Assembly (NCBI GenBank): GCA_024689285.1
Contig: JAILDR010000242.1
Location: 1 to 5,385, forward strand
DNA: 5,385 nucleotides
Direction: 5' to 3'
Source of the DNA: Bacteroidales bacterium
GTDB lineage: Bacteria > Bacteroidota > Bacteroidia > Bacteroidales > F082
Part shown: positions 1 to 5,385 of the stretch, in pieces
How the letters are laid out: the number at the start of each line of letters is the position of its first letter
Position numbering within the stretch: the first letter of the stretch is position 1
The notes under the pieces: model-generated
The model's database searches: none
What the model was told of the DNA's origin: nothing
The model's input: only the letters and a program-made list of their open reading frames with translations
Program-made: the position numbers and the translations under genes

Positions 1-141
1 ATGGCCACGGAAGATGTTACCCGTCATGAACTTGGTGGGCGGCATGTACTTCAGCGTGGCTTTGGGGAAGATTTCTCTTGTCATTTGTGCTTGGGCGAGT
101 TCCAAAAGGAATCCGTTCTCAAGCATCGGGTCCATCTCGAA
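1..141. repeat. Perfect 141-bp terminal inverted repeat, left end
   Basis: Bases 1-141 are the exact reverse complement of 5245-5385; the first mismatch is at 142 (a against g). The repeat lies inside kamD coding sequence. The length equals the largest default k-mer of a common metagenome assembler (MEGAHIT, 141). That suggests the contig was cut where two kamD copies become identical, not a biological replicon end. Confidence 0.95.
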
Positions 142-1158
142 AGCGTGACCCAGACCCATCTGCTCCTCGGGCAGACCGGCGATGAGAGCCAGCTGTTCGT
201 TGATGAGGTCGGAGGCCAACACGGTGTGGGCGGCTTCCACGGCATCGGCGGTGGTCAGATAGTTGTCCTCACCCGTGTTGATGATGACGCCGGCGAAACC
301 GTTGATGATACGGCTCATGTATTGGTCGATCAGCGTACGCTGCATGTTGATGTCGCGGAACAGGATGCCGTAGAGAGCATCGTTCAGCATGACATCGAGG
401 CCTTCGAAAGCACCCATGATGGCGATTTCAGGCATGCAGAGACCTGAGCAGTAGTTGCAGAGGCGAATGTAACGGCCTTGCTCCTCACCCACTTCGTCGA
501 GGGCCTTACGCATGATGCGGAAGTTCTCCTGCGTGGCGAAGGTGCCACCGAAGCCCTCTGTTGTAGCGCCGTAAGGCACATAGTCCAAAAGGCTCTGACC
601 CGTGGTGCGGATCACAGCGATGACATCGGCACCTTGACGGGCACCGGCTTGGGCTTGCACCACGTCTTCGTAGATGTTACCGGTAGCAACAATAATATAA
701 AGGTAAGGCTTAGGGCCTTCTCCGATGGTTTCGAGATAATGTTCACGGCGGGCGCGGCGGGCACGAATGCGGGCCATGCTCTCGTCGATGACGGGTTGCA
801 GCGTGGCAGCAATTTGTTTCTGGTCGCGGGTGACGACCTTAGTGATGTCGAGTTCACCTTTGGCCACTTTCTCAGCAATCTCTTGCGGTTTCAGTCCCGT
901 CTGAATCATGGCGTTAGCGATGAAAAACAGGATGCCCTCACCGAGCACGCCTTTGTCCTTGATGGCGTCGACGACCACATTGGGCAGCGGAACTTCGCTT
1001 TCGTCCACTCCGTCGATGCCCAACAGTCGGGCGAGGGTGCGCTCCACAGCCACGGTGGTGTATTGCTCGCAGAAGGCCTGCACCTCGTCAGCGATGTTCT
1101 TCGCCAGCCCACGGGCATACTCCACTTTCTTAAAATCAAGTCCTAATTTACTTTCCAT
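1..1158 (-). CDS. kamD: Lysine 5,6-aminomutase alpha subunit, left copy, 3'-truncated by window edge
   Basis: This is the large subunit of the cytoplasmic adenosylcobalamin/PLP-dependent mutase that moves the terminal amino group of D-lysine or L-beta-lysine to the neighbouring carbon during lysine fermentation. The small subunit KamE, not in the window, carries the B12 site. Reading from the ATG at 1158, 386 codons are open with no stop. The family is about 516 residues, so the C-terminal quarter lies outside. Family-typical stretches include GIDGVDE near residue 48, IVATGNIYEDV near 156, TTGQSLLDYVPYGATTEGF near 185, NYCSGLCMPE near 235 and PPTKFMTGNIFRGH at the edge. It differs from the right copy at nine residues, all within the first 133; residues 134-386 are identical. 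The many silent differences indicate purifying selection. No Shine-Dalgarno box precedes the start; the leader is A-rich. Assignment rests on remembered KamD sequence and is strong. Confidence 0.93.
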   Translation of the reverse strand, partial: MESKLGLDFKKVEYARGLAKNIADEVQAFCEQYTTVAVERTLARLLGIDGVDESEVPLPNVVVDAIKDKGVLGEGILFFIANAMIQTGLKPQEIAEKVAKGELDITKVVTRDQKQIAATLQPVIDESMARIRARRARREHYLETIGEGPKPYLYIIVATGNIYEDVVQAQAGARQGADVIAVIRTTGQSLLDYVPYGATTEGFGGTFATQENFRIMRKALDEVGEEQGRYIRLCNYCSGLCMPEIAIMGAFEGLDVMLNDALYGILFRDINMQRTLIDQYMSRIINGFAGVIINTGEDNYLTTADAVEAAHTVLASDLINEQLALIAGLPEEQMGLGHAFEMDPMLENGFLLELAQAQMTREIFPKATLKYMPPTKFMTGNIFRGH

Positions 1159-1167
1159 ATTTTTCGT

Positions 1168-1202
1168 TTATGTTGTTTAAATAATTGATTTATTGTTCGT
1201 TA
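1168..1202 (-). promoter_or_regulatory. 35-bp conserved block upstream of left kamD
   Basis: Read on the minus strand, this runs from TAACGAACAATAAATC to AAACAACATAA and matches 4186-4220 at every base. Its first three bases are also the stop codon of the LRR/T9SS gene, so the cargo boundary falls exactly here. It contains a near-palindrome, TAAATCAATTATTTA (1178-1192, one mismatched pair). Nine bases separate it from the kamD ATG. No clear Bacteroidetes -33/-7 promoter is seen. It may be an operator, a leader determinant or a processing site; the role is inferred from conservation only. Confidence 0.5.
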
Positions 1203-2195
1203 ATTCTTTATTATCTGTTTTGTAACCACTCCAGAAGGGGTAATCACCTTTAATATATAAGTGCCTGCTTCTTGTGTCGACAGGTCAATCACATTTTCTT
1301 TAGTTTCTTTTACCAACTGCCCAATAGCATTGAAAACTTGTACTTTAGCATGATAAACTCCCTCAATTCTCAGATAGTCCGTTACAGGATTTGGATAGCA
1401 TGAAACCGTGATGTCATCTATTGAATACTCGTCAGTGAATAAGGTGCAGTCCTCTACGAAATTGGTAAATTCATTCCAAAATTCAGTGTTTTGATACAAT
1501 TCTATAGTATTGCATGGAACATATACTGGAATGCCTTTGGGGACATATCTAAAACTTGAGTATTGGCAAATTGGCGGCGTAGCACGATCGATAGTAATAG
1601 AATCTAAGCCAGTACAATTTGAAAATGCTTCGAAGCTAATTTCCTCCACTCCCGATCCCAAATAAAGATAGTTGAGTCCAACACAAGTGTAAAAAGACCA
1701 CGATCCGATACTTCTTACCGAGTTTGGAATATAGACAGCCGTTAATGCTGTATTCCATTCAAATGCTCTAGAGCCTATAGTCTGTAGATAATCTGGCAAA
1801 TGTAATTCTCCTATTAAAGACACATGTGTATCAGAGGCAAATGCCCCATCTCCGATTGAGATGATACTATTAGGGAAGATTACAGATGATAGATTGCAAG
1901 CATTAAACGCATTGTCTCCTATATTGACGACCGTATAATCCTCACCATTGTATTGCACTTTTTCTGGAATAACTAAATCACCTGAAGGTGCTGTCACTTC
2001 ATAATAATAGGTGTACCATTGGTAATATCCAGAATTAAAATACTCTGCATAAGTCAACTCGACATTTTTTTCATTTTCGCTGAGGATGTTGTAATACAAA
2101 GTTTGTCCCGATTCGCAAACTGCTGTAAAGTCGTATGCAAAACTATTGGCGAAAAATCCAAGCAAACAAACTATTGTAAAAAGGAACTTCTTCAT
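1200..2195 (-). CDS. Secreted BspA-like leucine-rich-repeat protein with T9SS type A sorting domain
   Basis: This is a predicted surface or secreted protein of 331 residues. An N-terminal signal peptide (MKKFLFTIVCLLGFFANSFA, likely cleaved before YDF) is followed by a Tyr-rich stretch to about residue 80. Residues about 88-205 hold five BspA/TpLRR-type repeats with the cores IGDNAF, IGDGAF, IGSRAF, IGSWSF and ISFEAF. Residues about 266-331 form a type IX secretion C-terminal domain (CYPNPV near the start, EAGTYILKV, ending KQIIKN). Such domains direct export across the outer membrane in Bacteroidetes; BspA-like LRRs often mediate adhesion. An in-frame TTG at 2222, 8 bases after a GGAGG box, would add nine residues (MINLLKINK) and matches the leader of the right-arm cargo gene. 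I chose the ATG at 2195 because TTG starts are rare in this phylum. It lies between the kamC tail and kamD, an odd place for a surface protein. The ligand is unknown. Confidence 0.88.
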   Translation of the reverse strand: MKKFLFTIVCLLGFFANSFAYDFTAVCESGQTLYYNILSENEKNVELTYAEYFNSGYYQWYTYYYEVTAPSGDLVIPEKVQYNGEDYTVVNIGDNAFNACNLSSVIFPNSIISIGDGAFASDTHVSLIGELHLPDYLQTIGSRAFEWNTALTAVYIPNSVRSIGSWSFYTCVGLNYLYLGSGVEEISFEAFSNCTGLDSITIDRATPPICQYSSFRYVPKGIPVYVPCNTIELYQNTEFWNEFTNFVEDCTLFTDEYSIDDITVSCYPNPVTDYLRIEGVYHAKVQVFNAIGQLVKETKENVIDLSTQEAGTYILKVITPSGVVTKQIIKN

Positions 2196-2230
2196 TTTGT
2201 TGATTTTTAATAAGTTAATCAATTCAGTAT

Positions 2231-2235
2231 CCTCC
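2231..2235 (-). promoter_or_regulatory. GGAGG box at the end of left kamC, before the LRR gene
   Basis: On the minus strand GGAGG lies 8 bases before an in-frame TTG at 2222 and 35 bases before the ATG at 2195. In the right arm the matching position is an ATG at 3647. The TTG may be a decayed or weak start. Confidence 0.5.
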
Positions 2236-2254
2236 TTTCACATTTTCCAAGGGG

Positions 2255-2266
2255 GTCGAATTCGAC
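2255..2266. repeat. GAATTC-centred palindrome in left kamC tail
   Basis: The 12-base perfect palindrome GTCGAATTCGAC lies within the codons for SNST. It occupies the same place, just after ATTATG, as the palindrome TGGCGAATTCGCCA in the right copy. The T:A pair here is G:C there, so the symmetry survives a paired change. Confidence 0.6.
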
Positions 2267-2375
2267 ATAATTAGAATGTTTCTCGCCTCGGCAATCCACT
2301 CCTTATCAATCCCCAAACTCTCGGCGATATTCAGCGCCTCGTGCGGCACTTCGCCGTCTTGCACCTCGACGAGTT

Positions 2376-2392
2376 CGTAGTCCATCGAGAAG
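2376..2392. other. Fold-back junction between the two kamC arms
   Basis: To the left, minus-strand kamC begins at MDYELVE (2385). To the right, plus-strand kamC is readable from about 2381 (SIEKGLSSF). The arms therefore meet head to head with a few shared bases around TCCATCGAG, consistent with a microhomology join. The two partners are cut at different codons: the left lacks the Walker B and H-loop segment retained on the right. Neither arm has a start codon or recognisable promoter here. Confidence 0.7.
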
Positions 2393-2752
2393 GGGCTGTC
2401 TTCGTTTGCCGCAGAGATGAAGAACATCGATGCCGTCATCAAGGCATCGCGCGAAAACAGAAAGATAGTGGCGTTGATTGACGAGCCGGCCCGCACCACC
2501 AACCCCACCGAAGGCACCGCTTTGGTGTCGGCCTTAGTGAAGGTGTTGAGGGGCGACAATGTGAGCCTCGTCATGACCACGCATTACGATATAGAGCCGA
2601 CCGATGCCCGTTGCCTCCGCGTGAAGGGCTTCGAGAACGGCACGATGAACTACTCGCTCGTCGAGGTGCAAGACGGCGAAGTGCCACATGAGGCCTTGAA
2701 TATCGCCGAGAGTTTGGGGATTGATAAGGAGTGGATTGAAACGGCGAGAGCG

Positions 2753-2786
2753 TTTTTAATTATGGCGAATTCGCCACAATTAAAAA
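2753..2786. repeat. 34-bp near-perfect palindrome in right kamC tail
   Basis: The core TGGCGAATTCGCCA (2763-2776) is extended by TTTTTAATT (2753-2761) and its complement AATTAAAAA (2778-2786), with one mismatched pair (2762/2777). It lies in coding sequence for the KamC C-terminus and abuts the next palindrome, sharing three A residues. Confidence 0.7.
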
Positions 2787-2809
2787 CCCCCTCGAATTCG
2801 AGGGGGTTT
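2784..2809. terminator. 26-bp perfect palindrome, terminator- or attenuator-like hairpin
   Basis: An 11-bp stem (AAACCCCCTCG with its complement) has an AATT loop centred on GAATTC. In the plus direction only three T residues follow. In the minus direction the run is TTTTTAATT, better for an intrinsic terminator, yet no minus-strand gene ends here. It sits inside the last codons of kamC, 34 bases before the KilA-N ATG, so on the kamC transcript it could act as an attenuator or stability hairpin. The left arm lacks it. Confidence 0.45.
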
Positions 2810-2830
2810 AGGAACCTCGTTGAAAAGGAA

Positions 2831-2835
2831 GGAGG
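2831..2835 (+). promoter_or_regulatory. GGAGG ribosome-binding site of the KilA-N gene
   Basis: GGAGG lies in the last codons of kamC, 8 bases before the ATG at 2844. It decides that start over the in-frame TTG at 2820. The same box and the same 8-base spacing recur before the next gene and in the left arm. Strong Shine-Dalgarno sites are uncommon in Bacteroidetes. Confidence 0.65.
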
Positions 2836-2843
2836 AAAATAAT

Positions 2844-3650
2844 ATGGCAAAGATTCTGGTTCAAGATACAAGCATAACGATACTTTCAATTGAGAGCAAG
2901 GATTATATCTCTTTGACTGATATTGCAAAGTTCAAGACAGATGATACTTTTATTGCCGTTTGTAACTGGATGCGTAATAGGAATACCATTGAGTATTTGG
3001 GTATCTGGGAATCTTTATACAATCCAAGTTTTAACCCTATCGAATTCGATAGGTTTAGAATTGAAGCAGGGTTAAATGCCTTTACCATGTCTCCAAAGAA
3101 ATGGATAGAAGCGACTGGTGCCATTGGAATAGTAAGTAAATCTGGAAGATACGGAGGTACATTTGCCCACAAAGACATTGCCTTCAAGTTTGCCAGTTGG
3201 ATTTCGGTTGAGTTTGAGTTGTATGTTGCTAAGGAATTCCAACGCCTAAAAGAAGAAGAACAAAAGCAAATCGGTTGGTCGGTGAAAAGGGAGTTGGCGA
3301 AGATAAACTACCATATCCACACGGATGCCATTAAGGAGAATCTTGTTCCAGAAGAGATTGACCGTTATCATGCCTCTTTGATTTACGCCAACGAAGCCGA
3401 TGTGCTGAATGTGGCCTTGTTTGGTGTGACCGCGAAGGAATGGCGCGATGCTAACCCTGACATGAAAGGCAACATCCGTGATTATGCCAACATCAACCAA
3501 CTGATTTGCCTCTCGAATATGGAAAACCTCAATGCGGTCTTCATTAATAAAGGTATGCCGCAGCGGGAGAGACTGATTGAACTGAACAAAATCGCCATTC
3601 AGCAGATGAAGGTGCTGGAGGGCGTTGAAGAAAGGAGGATGCTGAAATGA
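2844..3650 (+). CDS. KilA-N domain protein
   Basis: This encodes 268 residues from ATG 2844 to TGA 3648-3650. Residues about 5-135 form a KilA-N domain, a putative DNA-binding fold common in phages and mobile elements. Recognisable blocks are DYISLTDIAKF, WMRNRNTIEYLGIWE, NPIEFDRFRIEAGLNAF, PKKWIEATGAIGI, SGRYGGTFAHKDIAF and FASWISVEFELY, ending EFQRLKEEE. The C-terminal half (GWSVKRELAKINYHIHTDAI and onward) resembles the conserved tail often found with this domain in Bacteroidetes, of unknown role. It starts one base after the kamC stop and its own stop overlaps the next ATG (ATGA), so it is embedded in the operon. The left arm has no equivalent, which points to insertion here or loss there. 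It could be a stray phage-derived regulator; the DNA target and function are unknown. Confidence 0.9.
   Translation: MAKILVQDTSITILSIESKDYISLTDIAKFKTDDTFIAVCNWMRNRNTIEYLGIWESLYNPSFNPIEFDRFRIEAGLNAFTMSPKKWIEATGAIGIVSKSGRYGGTFAHKDIAFKFASWISVEFELYVAKEFQRLKEEEQKQIGWSVKRELAKINYHIHTDAIKENLVPEEIDRYHASLIYANEADVLNVALFGVTAKEWRDANPDMKGNIRDYANINQLICLSNMENLNAVFINKGMPQRERLIELNKIAIQQMKVLEGVEERRMLK
3634..3638 (+). promoter_or_regulatory. GGAGG ribosome-binding site of the small secreted-protein gene
   Basis: It lies in the end of the KilA-N gene, 8 bases before the overlapping ATG at 3647. The surrounding GAAAGGAGGAT is identical to the left arm at the kamC-LRR boundary (2229-2239, minus strand). It supports 3647 as the start over the in-frame ATG at 3674. 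Confidence 0.6.
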
Positions 3651-4162
3651 TTAAACATTTGAATATCAATAAAATGAAAAAACTTATTACTTTACTGGTA
3701 TTAACGATAGCAACGATTGTTAGTGCTAATGCACAAGAATATAGATTGTATAAGACTCAAAACTACCATAATCAACTTCGACTAAACACGAGGACTGGTA
3801 GAGTTGAACAAATACAAGATGATGGTCAAAGTTGGCAAGTTGTATTTGACCTTGAACCACAAGAAGAATATACAAATAGATTTCGTTTGTATGAAACACA
3901 AAACATATGGACTTTTATTGAGCTTGATACATTCACGGGTAGGCTATGGCAAGTCCAATTTAGTGTAGAAGGAGCGGAATATAGAACATTCTTCACCATT
4001 AATCAAAAGTATCTGGCTGTTCCTGAAAACAAGAGTATCTTTACAATACAGCCTCTTACAAGTATGTTTCAATACTATTTGATGAACGAATATACTGGTG
4101 AAATGTGGAAATTTCAATGGAGTACAAAAGGTGATGACTATAGATGGATTGAAAAAATGTAA
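3647..4162 (+). CDS. Small secreted protein with three internal repeats
   Basis: This encodes 171 residues from ATG 3647; the in-frame ATG at 3674 would give 162. Both leave a signal peptide, MKKLITLLVLTIATIVSANA, with likely cleavage before QEYRLY. No T9SS tail or lipobox is seen, so periplasmic or secreted location is inferred. The mature part is three tandem units of about 37 residues (about 32-68, 79-116 and 131-168) built on a pattern like FRLYxTQN, a hydrophobic strand, TxTGRxWQVQ and GxxYR. The middle unit is the clearest (LYETQNIWTFIELDTFTGRLWQVQ is split by the pattern). The third has drifted (FTIQPLTSM, YTGEMWKFQW). The short aromatic repeats look like beta-strand units. The start overlaps the KilA-N stop, suggesting coupling. 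I recall similar small proteins from Bacteroidales but know no function. Confidence 0.85.
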   Translation: MIKHLNINKMKKLITLLVLTIATIVSANAQEYRLYKTQNYHNQLRLNTRTGRVEQIQDDGQSWQVVFDLEPQEEYTNRFRLYETQNIWTFIELDTFTGRLWQVQFSVEGAEYRTFFTINQKYLAVPENKSIFTIQPLTSMFQYYLMNEYTGEMWKFQWSTKGDDYRWIEKM

Positions 4163-4227
4163 AATATAGTCAATTCGAGTATAAATAACGAACAATAAAT
4201 CAATTATTTAAACAACATAAGTAGTAT
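4163..4227. other. Intergenic region before right kamD
   Basis: These 65 bases contain a 23-base AT-rich, cargo-specific stretch, the 35-base block shared with the left arm, and a 7-base spacer. No terminator hairpin is seen after the secreted-protein gene, so read-through into kamD is plausible. Confidence 0.5.
4186..4220 (+). promoter_or_regulatory. 35-bp conserved block upstream of right kamD
   Basis: This is identical to the block upstream of left kamD, although the genes before it are unrelated. It begins 23 bases after the stop of the small secreted-protein gene and ends 7 bases before the kamD ATG. The AT-rich near-palindrome is at 4196-4210. The spacer between block and ATG differs between arms in sequence and length (9 against 7 bases), so the identity is local to the block. 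Confidence 0.5.
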
Positions 4228-5385
4228 ATGGAAAGTAAATTAGGACTTGATTTTAAGAAAGTGGAGTATGCGAGGGGACTGGCGAAAAACATCGCTGACG
4301 ATGTGCAGGCCTTCTGCGAGCAATACACCACGGTGGCCGTGGAGCGCACCCTCGCCCGACTGATGGGCATCGACGGGGTGGACGAAAGCGATGTGCCGCT
4401 GCCCAATGTAGTGGTGGACGCCATCAAGGACAAAGGCGTGCTCGGCGAGGGCATCCTGTTCTTCATCGCCAACGCCATGATCCAAACGGACCTCAACCCG
4501 CAACAAATCGCCGAGAAGGTGGCCAAAGGCGAACTCGACATCACCAAGGTGGTGACGCGCGACCAGAAACAGATTGCCGCCACGCTGCAACCCGTCATCG
4601 ACGAGAGCCTGACGCGCATCCGCACCCGCCGCGCCCGCCGCGAGCATTACCTTGAGACCATCGGCGAAGGCCCCAAGCCATACCTTTATATTATTGTGGC
4701 TACGGGTAACATCTACGAGGATGTGGTGCAAGCCCAAGCCGGTGCCCGTCAGGGAGCCGATGTCATCGCTGTGATCCGTACCACGGGTCAGAGCCTTTTG
4801 GACTATGTGCCTTACGGCGCCACCACCGAGGGCTTTGGCGGTACCTTTGCCACCCAGGAGAACTTCCGCATCATGCGTAAGGCCCTCGACGAAGTGGGAG
4901 AGGAGCAAGGCCGTTATATCCGCCTCTGCAACTACTGCTCTGGTCTCTGCATGCCCGAGATCGCCATCATGGGCGCTTTCGAAGGCCTCGATGTCATGCT
5001 GAACGACGCCCTCTACGGCATCCTGTTCCGCGACATCAACATGCAACGCACGCTGATTGACCAATACATGAGCCGTATCATCAATGGCTTCGCTGGTGTC
5101 ATCATCAATACCGGTGAGGACAACTACCTGACCACCGCCGATGCTGTGGAAGCTGCACACACCGTGTTGGCCTCCGACCTCATCAACGAACAGCTGGCCC
5201 TTATTGCCGGTCTGCCTGAAGAGCAGATGGGTCTGGGTCACGCCTTCGAGATGGACCCGATGCTTGAGAACGGATTCCTTTTGGAACTCGCCCAAGCACA
5301 AATGACAAGAGAAATCTTCCCCAAAGCCACGCTGAAGTACATGCCGCCCACCAAGTTCATGACGGGTAACATCTTCCGTGGCCAT
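4228..5385 (+). CDS. kamD: Lysine 5,6-aminomutase alpha subunit, right copy, 3'-truncated by window edge
   Basis: This is a second copy of the aminomutase large subunit, open for 386 codons from the ATG at 4228 to the last base and cut at the same residue (GNIFRGH) as the left copy. It shows the same landmarks: GIDGVDESDVPLPN near 48, TTGQSLLDYVPYGATTEGF near 185 and INTGEDNYLTTADA near 293. Relative to the left copy it carries D25, M46, D55, D88, N90, Q93, L128, T129 and T133 (left: E, L, E, G, K, E, M, A, A). The first 44 bases are identical between copies; then differences begin, 12 in the first 180 bases by eye. It starts 65 bases after the stop of the small secreted-protein gene and has no Shine-Dalgarno box. 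The two copies are either diverged paralogues in one genome or homologues from two related strains. The sequence does not decide which. Confidence 0.93.
   Translation, partial: MESKLGLDFKKVEYARGLAKNIADDVQAFCEQYTTVAVERTLARLMGIDGVDESDVPLPNVVVDAIKDKGVLGEGILFFIANAMIQTDLNPQQIAEKVAKGELDITKVVTRDQKQIAATLQPVIDESLTRIRTRRARREHYLETIGEGPKPYLYIIVATGNIYEDVVQAQAGARQGADVIAVIRTTGQSLLDYVPYGATTEGFGGTFATQENFRIMRKALDEVGEEQGRYIRLCNYCSGLCMPEIAIMGAFEGLDVMLNDALYGILFRDINMQRTLIDQYMSRIINGFAGVIINTGEDNYLTTADAVEAAHTVLASDLINEQLALIAGLPEEQMGLGHAFEMDPMLENGFLLELAQAQMTREIFPKATLKYMPPTKFMTGNIFRGH
5245..5385. repeat. Perfect 141-bp terminal inverted repeat, right end
   Basis: This is the partner of the repeat at 1-141, within the last 47 codons of the right kamD fragment. 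The copies diverge at once on the inner side of this block, at silent positions, and are identical up to the window edge. Confidence 0.95.

Follow-up and report, generated by a model that had tools for sequence, protein, structure and literature searches.

The window analysed here, a 5,385-nt stretch of Bacteroidales DNA, consists of two segments of a lysine-fermentation operon (kamC, cargo and kamD) arranged as a mirror image. This mirror is in all likelihood an artefact of assembly and copying, not a feature of a real genome. The window most likely represents an entire metagenome contig, derived from a Bacteroidales population resembling the matched rumen metagenome-assembled genomes. The slot between kamC and kamD is real and belongs to a known kind of hot spot, with exchangeable secreted and defence-candidate genes placed in the lysine-fermentation operon. 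One of its genes, in the right arm, encodes a KilA-N protein. In most of the KilA-N genes of this type that were examined, one codon site holds an in-frame GAATTC-centred palindrome, the arms of which covary across Bacteroidota, Gammaproteobacteria and phages.

The two arms of the window lie on opposite strands and read kamC tail, cargo, leader and kamD outward from approximately position 2385. This arrangement, proposed by an earlier sequence-only reading of the same DNA, is borne out, in that homology to relatives switches at 2379-2389. The kamD gene, which encodes lysine 5,6-aminomutase alpha, is located at 1..1158 on the minus strand (left allele) and at 4228..5385 on the plus strand (right allele). 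Both copies are cut at the 3' end by the contig end, and both are identified as Lys-AminoMut_A (Pfam PF09043, E = 1.7e-209 and 1.5e-209 respectively). The kamC 3' end of the left allele (2224..2387, minus strand) and the kamC 3' part of the right allele (2379..2842, plus strand) are both cut at the junction. The close match of kamC and kamD across the arms also holds. The kamD arms (1-1160 and 4226-5385) are 92% complementary over 1160 nt, and the kamC copies (2256-2387, minus strand, and 2643-2773, plus strand) match at 83% (144 nt) to 86% (130 nt). The conserved kamD leader copies (1168..1205 and 4183..4220) match at 97% over 38 nt, and the start and leader common to both cargo genes (2188-2239 and 3630-3681) at 81% over 52 nt. 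The window contains only parts of kamC and kamD, and the operon order of KamC reactivase followed by alpha and beta subunits is seen through two relative loci, in which NCBIfam equivalogs identify KamC ('lysine 5,6-aminomutase reactivase ATPase') and lysine 5,6-aminomutase alpha (L002) and the beta subunit of this enzyme (L133).

Past an identical terminal stretch of 141 nt, the kamD arms show 93 differences up to position 1160, of which 86 are at third codon positions. This result indicates that the arms are two selected alleles, not noise. The left kamD is 88.5-90.9% identical to 15 relatives matched over 1157 nt, and the right kamD is 89.9-94.4% identical to 15 relatives matched over the same length. 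The arms are very probably two alleles of one operon, not an inverted duplication.

The left contig end (1..141) is the exact reverse complement of the right contig end (5245..5385), and the 142nd nucleotide is a mismatch. The region of this 141-mer is present in 16 of the 22 relative loci compared, with 15-21 positions differing. Contig names beginning with k141_ are carried by four Bacteroidales records (L032, L048, L062 and L068) among the best 80 of 586 loci, so that the length of the terminal repeat equals an assembler k used within the same taxon; 141 is also the default largest k of MEGAHIT. The same k-mer at both ends is the expected outcome of a de Bruijn graph where two alleles merge. 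A CheckV extended-data legend (PMC8116208) explains direct terminal repeats as long as a k-mer as products of assemblers. The window shares with these repeats identical ends that are one assembler k-mer long. The repeats of that legend are direct and those of the window are inverted, as would be given by a graph path that comes back to its starting node along the opposite strand.

The inverted join lies inside kamC at 2379..2389. In relatives, the left and right kamC pieces map to opposite strands of one gene, at sites 263 nt apart in genome G130. The join consists of GAGTTCGTAGT, which resembles the left site, followed by AGTCCATCGAGAAG, which resembles the right site. When G130 is used as a stand-in for the left allele, the letters shared at the join are an exact AGT inside an 8-of-9 match. 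The kamC gene of G130 on contig C39 is exactly identical to 2292-2381 in the inverted orientation (90 nt) and to 2402-2502 (101 nt) and 2537-2653 (117 nt) in the direct orientation. Given these exact matches in both orientations, one allele can supply the fold-back. As regards the origin of both segments from one molecule, the arms differ, yet one G130-like allele covers most of 2292-2653. In one amplification study, inverted joins with an intervening deletion made up more than 85% of the chimeras, and more than 70% showed 2-21 nt of complementarity (PMC1855051). The window resembles the fold-back chimeras of multiple displacement amplification (MDA) described there in its inverted join with an intervening deletion, in the distance between the joined sites (263 nt in G130, far below 10 kb) and in its short complementarity (the exact AGT in the 8-of-9 match, judged with the same stand-in). 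It differs from the simple inverted chimera of that study in that its arms carry different alleles.

No match that crosses the junction is listed in the 59 of 173 family genomes that match the 517-nt centre, and the 35-mer of the junction has no match in viral contigs. Of the 55 genomes with a kamD match, 54 have a single one at E<=1e-100; genome G075 contains two partial kamD pieces on two contigs. Genomes with two kam operons head to head, which the sequence-only reading had proposed to search for, are not found in this set. The whole KamC is 446-494 residues long in the six relatives that are read complete, and both window copies are cut at the 5' end. Neither the junction nor two kam copies recur in the genomes, except that G130 has kamC on two contigs (L119 = C39 and L136 = C11) together with one kamD match. 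Contig C11 starts inside KilA-N. The two kamC contigs of G130 are compatible alike with a mixed bin and with a second operon.

The mirror would have been formed as follows. Both ends would run into one kamD 141-mer, at which a de Bruijn assembler with k=141 must stop. Near 2385, a fold-back chimera would have been formed within kamC, the leaving strand being joined via short homology to a site 263 nt upstream, and this fold-back could derive from a single G130-like kamC. The path would then enter the second allele inside the conserved loop, and the arms would differ for this reason. The join would thus have arisen in vitro. Several points weigh against this explanation. A simple fold-back of a single molecule predicts identical arms, but the kamD arms differ by 8% and the kamC arms by 14-17%, so that an allele switch has to be assumed. 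The unbranched passage of the join implies that the chimera outnumbered the true upstream region of kamC, or that this region went unsampled, an uncommon situation for a library made without amplification. The two kamC contigs of G130 leave room for a genome with two kam loci.

The sequence-only reading had offered an inverted duplication and a join of two related strains' operons side by side. The join is favoured and the duplication disfavoured, owing to the shared 141-mer ends, the two kamC copies cut at the 5' end and the lack of a junction match in relatives. A true head-to-head inverted duplication of kam in one genome, caused by a fold-back replication error at the short inverted kamC match and followed by divergence and acquisition of different cargo, is improbable. 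It would account for a join between two places 263 nt apart in one gene at an imperfect short inverted match, which is typical of fold-back duplications. The passage of the assembler through the centre without a branch and the occurrence of kamC on two contigs of G130 also agree with it, and gene conversion could equalize the ends of the arms. However, it would leave both kamC copies broken, it does not predict a shared end of exactly 141 nt, and it is opposed by the lack of a junction-crossing match in the 59 genomes that match the centre and by the single kamD match in 54 of 55 genomes. In addition, the divergence between the arms is comparable to the divergence from relatives of other species. 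The part of the earlier proposal that assigns different cargo to the arms stands, but the cargo difference is not to be taken as a product of inversion, in that cargo variation is normal at this locus.

A direct physical or assembly join of the molecules of two strains at kamC, with no single-molecule fold-back, is likewise unlikely. In its favour, the nearest kamC relatives differ by arm: the left tail is closest to genome G110 (96% over 132 nt) and the right part to genomes G130 and G118 (96% over 398 nt). But a chance intermolecular join would rarely fall in the same gene 263 nt away, and the exact shared letters, judged by G130, are only AGT, too short for a k-mer overlap of an assembler. 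An assembler overlap at the centre is rejected, as the exact shared letters are too few. A real element with inverted terminal repeats or a virus is also rejected; no viral family beyond KilA-N is seen. When viral contigs are searched for kamD, 36 stretches fit the pattern and none is a relative. Five phage records match when the whole window is compared with phages, and every match lies over KilA-N. A contig of this mirror form, whose inverted ends are exact and which carries KilA-N, would, if taken as viral, satisfy the inverted-terminal-repeat rule for closed genomes as given for CheckV (>=20 bp, PMC8116208), even though it represents a bacterial chromosome.

Among the 45 genomes in which both matches are located on one contig, the distance between kamC and kamD falls into two classes, 42-78 bp (11 genomes) and 424-5049 bp (34 genomes); these values are approximate, as the distance is measured from the last matched kamC base. 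The slot proteins scanned include KilA-N, AIPR/AbiU, GmrSD-like, YhcG/DUF1016 and type IX secretion system (T9SS)-tailed types. An AIPR or AbiU protein is found in genome G068, a GmrSD-like protein in genome G081, and T9SS-tailed proteins in G115 (two) and L012 (one). YhcG/DUF1016 proteins are found in L010 and L012, and similar open reading frames (ORFs) are recognized by eye in G101, G103, G119 and G068. In one scan, three of nine slot proteins had no Pfam family. The earlier claim that the cargoes of the two arms are unrelated is likewise confirmed. The left cargo is a leucine-rich repeat (LRR) protein with a T9SS sorting tail (1200..2195, minus strand; Pfam LRR_5, TIGR04183), and the right cargo consists of the KilA-N protein and a 171-aa protein without a Pfam family (3647..4162, plus strand), which by eye has a signal-like N terminus.

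The left LRR/T9SS gene is 99.5% identical to a gene of another species, with five mismatches in 996 nt to L125 3599-4594 (G115). The flanks of G115 are less similar to the window (kamC tail, 87.8%; kamD, 90.9%). This result suggests that the cargo moved apart from its flanks. In L125, three consecutive T9SS-tailed cargo genes are located between KilA-N and kamD (2451-6517), forming a cassette array, and the sequence after the middle T9SS gene is 100% identical to the window kamD leader over 52 nt. In the right arm, the start of the 171-aa protein gene overlaps the stop of the KilA-N gene by 4 nt. The same 4-nt overlap is found in 14 of 17 slots with an ORF after the KilA-N end, according to our own ORF calls and counted by eye, the others being G118, G097 and G002. 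In G110, G113 and G068, only approximately 100 nt of KilA-N is left. These remnants, together with the cargo leader of the left arm (2188..2239), which apparently retains the terminal codons of KilA-N, suggest that the left state arose by loss of KilA-N. The slot would therefore exist in two states, one with a KilA-N gene overlapping a cargo gene (right arm) and the other with a secreted LRR/T9SS gene alone after KilA-N loss (left arm), and its genes would be exchanged by recombination at the conserved leaders. Two more gene pairs that overlap by 4 nt, the second gene having a signal-like start, are seen in L002 (1783-3137 and 14532-15976), one of them ahead of kamC; the layout is that of KilA-N and its cargo. 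The first gene of each pair is presumably RhuM-like.

The KilA-N protein (2844..3650, plus strand; 268 aa) matches the KilA-N family (PF04383) at E = 5.5e-21, with 74.9 bits against a gathering score of 23.8. It also matches the PADLOC profile PDC-S22 at E = 4.1e-132 over residues 3-265, that is, over most of the protein. PDC-S22 is a phage-defence candidate only, shared here by profile match, and in the literature searched it is named in a co-occurrence list. Residues 6-137 align only to profile positions 3-106, suggesting that the domain contains an insertion of approximately 28 residues, within which the palindrome probably lies. The family is large, with at least 8000 members, as every one of the 8000 candidates scored matches at E<=0.001. 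The structure model has a pLDDT of 90.7, and Foldseek gives no match at E<=0.001. The KilA-N/APSES DNA-binding domain (Mbp1, PCG2) is among the nearest known systems. In the model, the likeness to DdrC of Deinococcus radiodurans is loose (rmsd 14.6, with the domains placed differently) and may be generic, the C-terminal part being helical; the search gave no sequence match to DdrC. In a Parabacteroides record (L197 1501-2307), a KilA-N gene of the same type is located alone right after ybeY, inserted between ordinary genes.

The in-frame palindrome of the window KilA-N gene is located at 3030..3059 on the plus strand. It pairs at 13 of 15 positions, contains a perfect core at 3036-3053 and encodes residues 63-72, mostly of a helix formed by residues 65-74. 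To score such palindromes, the 15 pairs around the centre were counted and compared with a null in which synonymous codons are shuffled according to the gene's own usage. Among 55 KilA-N regions (one of 56 was left unscored), a median of 14 of 15 pairs is complementary, against a shuffle mean of 8.8, and p<0.005 is reached in 49; the other six regions miss this threshold. Of 113 tblastn hits, 15 were dropped for lack of an anchor motif, including L150, L151, L142 and L168, whose palindromes show elsewhere. In the 34 distinct 30-mers, 96.1% of cells pair; the corresponding values are 78.0% for shuffles and 27-60% for slid controls. The covariation score is 0.517 against 0.175, with none of 500 shuffles as high; the paired cells and the cells changed on both sides also exceed the shuffles (0 of 500 as high). 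The number of pairs with a change on both sides and the number of further pair types are not above shuffles in this set. In 80 IMG/VR contigs, which hold 50 distinct 30-mers, a median of 13 pairs is complementary (shuffles, 8.4); p<0.005 is reached in 40 of the 50 and missed in 10, and L305, L306 and L308 show no palindrome excess (p 0.3-0.4). The second set is not wholly independent, as 10 of 48 of its 30-mers are also among the first 34, so that 34 and 48 give 72 distinct ones. The centre is GAATTC in 51 of the 55 and 36 of the 50 cases. These results indicate that the palindrome is beyond codon accident.

At the kam loci, perfect palindromes of at least 16 nt number 64 in 22 kam-group loci (159 kb), against 2 in one first-order random copy, and 61 of the 64 are centred on GAATTC. 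In the other kamD loci (1.16 Mb), 34 such palindromes are found against 19 in random sequence, and only three of them are GAATTC-centred. Of the 173 family genomes, 21 contain the pattern CCCTCGAATTCGAGGG, as against 0 for the control. The pattern is located inside a KilA-N gene away from kam in G036, G051, G136 and G154 and in the kam-slot KilA-N gene in G091, and all sites of the remaining 16 genomes are at most 500 bases downstream of a kamC match. When the middle is left free (TTTAAN6CGAATTCGN6TTAAA), 26 sites are found, spread over 23 of the 296 Bacteroidota genomes, as against 0 for the control; in 22 of the 23 loci fetched, the site falls within a KilA-N gene or remnant or next to one. 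The free N6 stretches are complementary at five or more of six positions in 21 of the 23 loci and at four of six in two. At the kam slot, the palindrome and the DNA-binding domain change together.

A GAATTC palindrome of at least 12 nt is found inside KilA-N in 22 of the 29 loci L147-L175, and not in L147, L149, L157, L165, L172, L174 and L175. The second KilA-N copies L140, L141 and L145 have none of this length either, and L206 lacks the EF site. The coding palindrome is also found in plasmid copies of Xenorhabdus and Aeromonas and in a Streptococcus satellite phage. An in-frame covarying palindrome is seen in L148, L166, L251, L283 and others, in bacteria and phages. No description of a KilA-N coding palindrome was found in the literature searched, subscription literature being largely outside it; within these bounds, a coding palindrome with covarying arms is undescribed.

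In different phyla and in phages, the coding palindrome keeps its symmetry as its letters change. It may be the DNA target of the very protein that it helps to encode, in codons for a helix of the DNA-binding domain, but this assignment, although the favoured one, is tentative. If so, reader and site would lie in one stretch of DNA, and a single recombination would exchange both and keep them matched. Four such reader-plus-site cassettes would circulate at the kam slot ahead of a constant C-terminal domain and upstream of exchangeable secreted and defence-type cargo, an exchange that may be likened to the swapping of specificity domains in restriction systems. Were the protein to bind its own palindrome, this site would offer direct access to the function of the large KilA-N family. 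Selection as an mRNA hairpin, acting in attenuation or translation control and not as a DNA site, is an equally tentative possibility. Four folded stretches give strong RNA hairpins (z -3.8 to -8.6), and in cases with a changed centre (L174 and L149; L282, L255 and L237) the arms are still complementary, as a hairpin allows, which weighs against a DNA target. However, departures from pairing among the 576 cells of pairs 4-11 in the 72 distinct 30-mers are 6 G-U and 15 A-C, showing no preference for wobble; 48 of the 50 IMG/VR 30-mers entered this count, L305 and L306 being left out as clear negatives. The absence of any sign of wobble tolerance points to DNA, and the prevalence of GAATTC at the centre also speaks against a hairpin.

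The palindromic elements of Rickettsia are dyad-symmetric DNA inside open reading frames. A selfish in-frame element of this type, once inserted into KilA-N genes, is a rather unlikely source of the palindrome. Extra copies at the kamC 3' end in another frame, and the insertion in the KilA-N domain, which probably contains the palindrome, would fit such an element. But 22 of the 23 free-middle loci lie in or beside KilA-N genes or remnants, so that the palindrome is not dispersed among many unrelated genes, the exceptions being L216 and the kamC 3' copies, and the arms change in step, unlike those of a frozen insertion. Palindromic amphipathic repeat coding elements (PARCELs, PMC2996958) are, like the KilA-N palindrome, dyad-symmetric DNA inside open reading frames. 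Unlike PARCELs, as that account describes them, and the Rickettsia elements, the KilA-N palindrome is mostly confined to one gene family and a fixed site, with covarying arms and no tandem array; tandem repeats of 25 residues are not seen, and each KilA-N gene has one site where it is present.

Copies are also found at the kamC 3' ends of the window. The left kamC ends in a GAATTC palindrome of 12 nt (2255..2266), read from the sequence as a member of the repeat family. In the 3' extension of the right kamC, a GAATTC palindrome of 34 nt (2753..2786), in which a single pair is mismatched, forms a hairpin on folding. A further GAATTC palindrome with AAACCCCCTC / GAGGGGGTTT arms (2784..2809) is recognized in the sequence, by repeat search and by folding. 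In L216 (1501-1530), the palindrome pattern is present without a KilA-N match in the locus, beside a gene that we take to be DinD-like.

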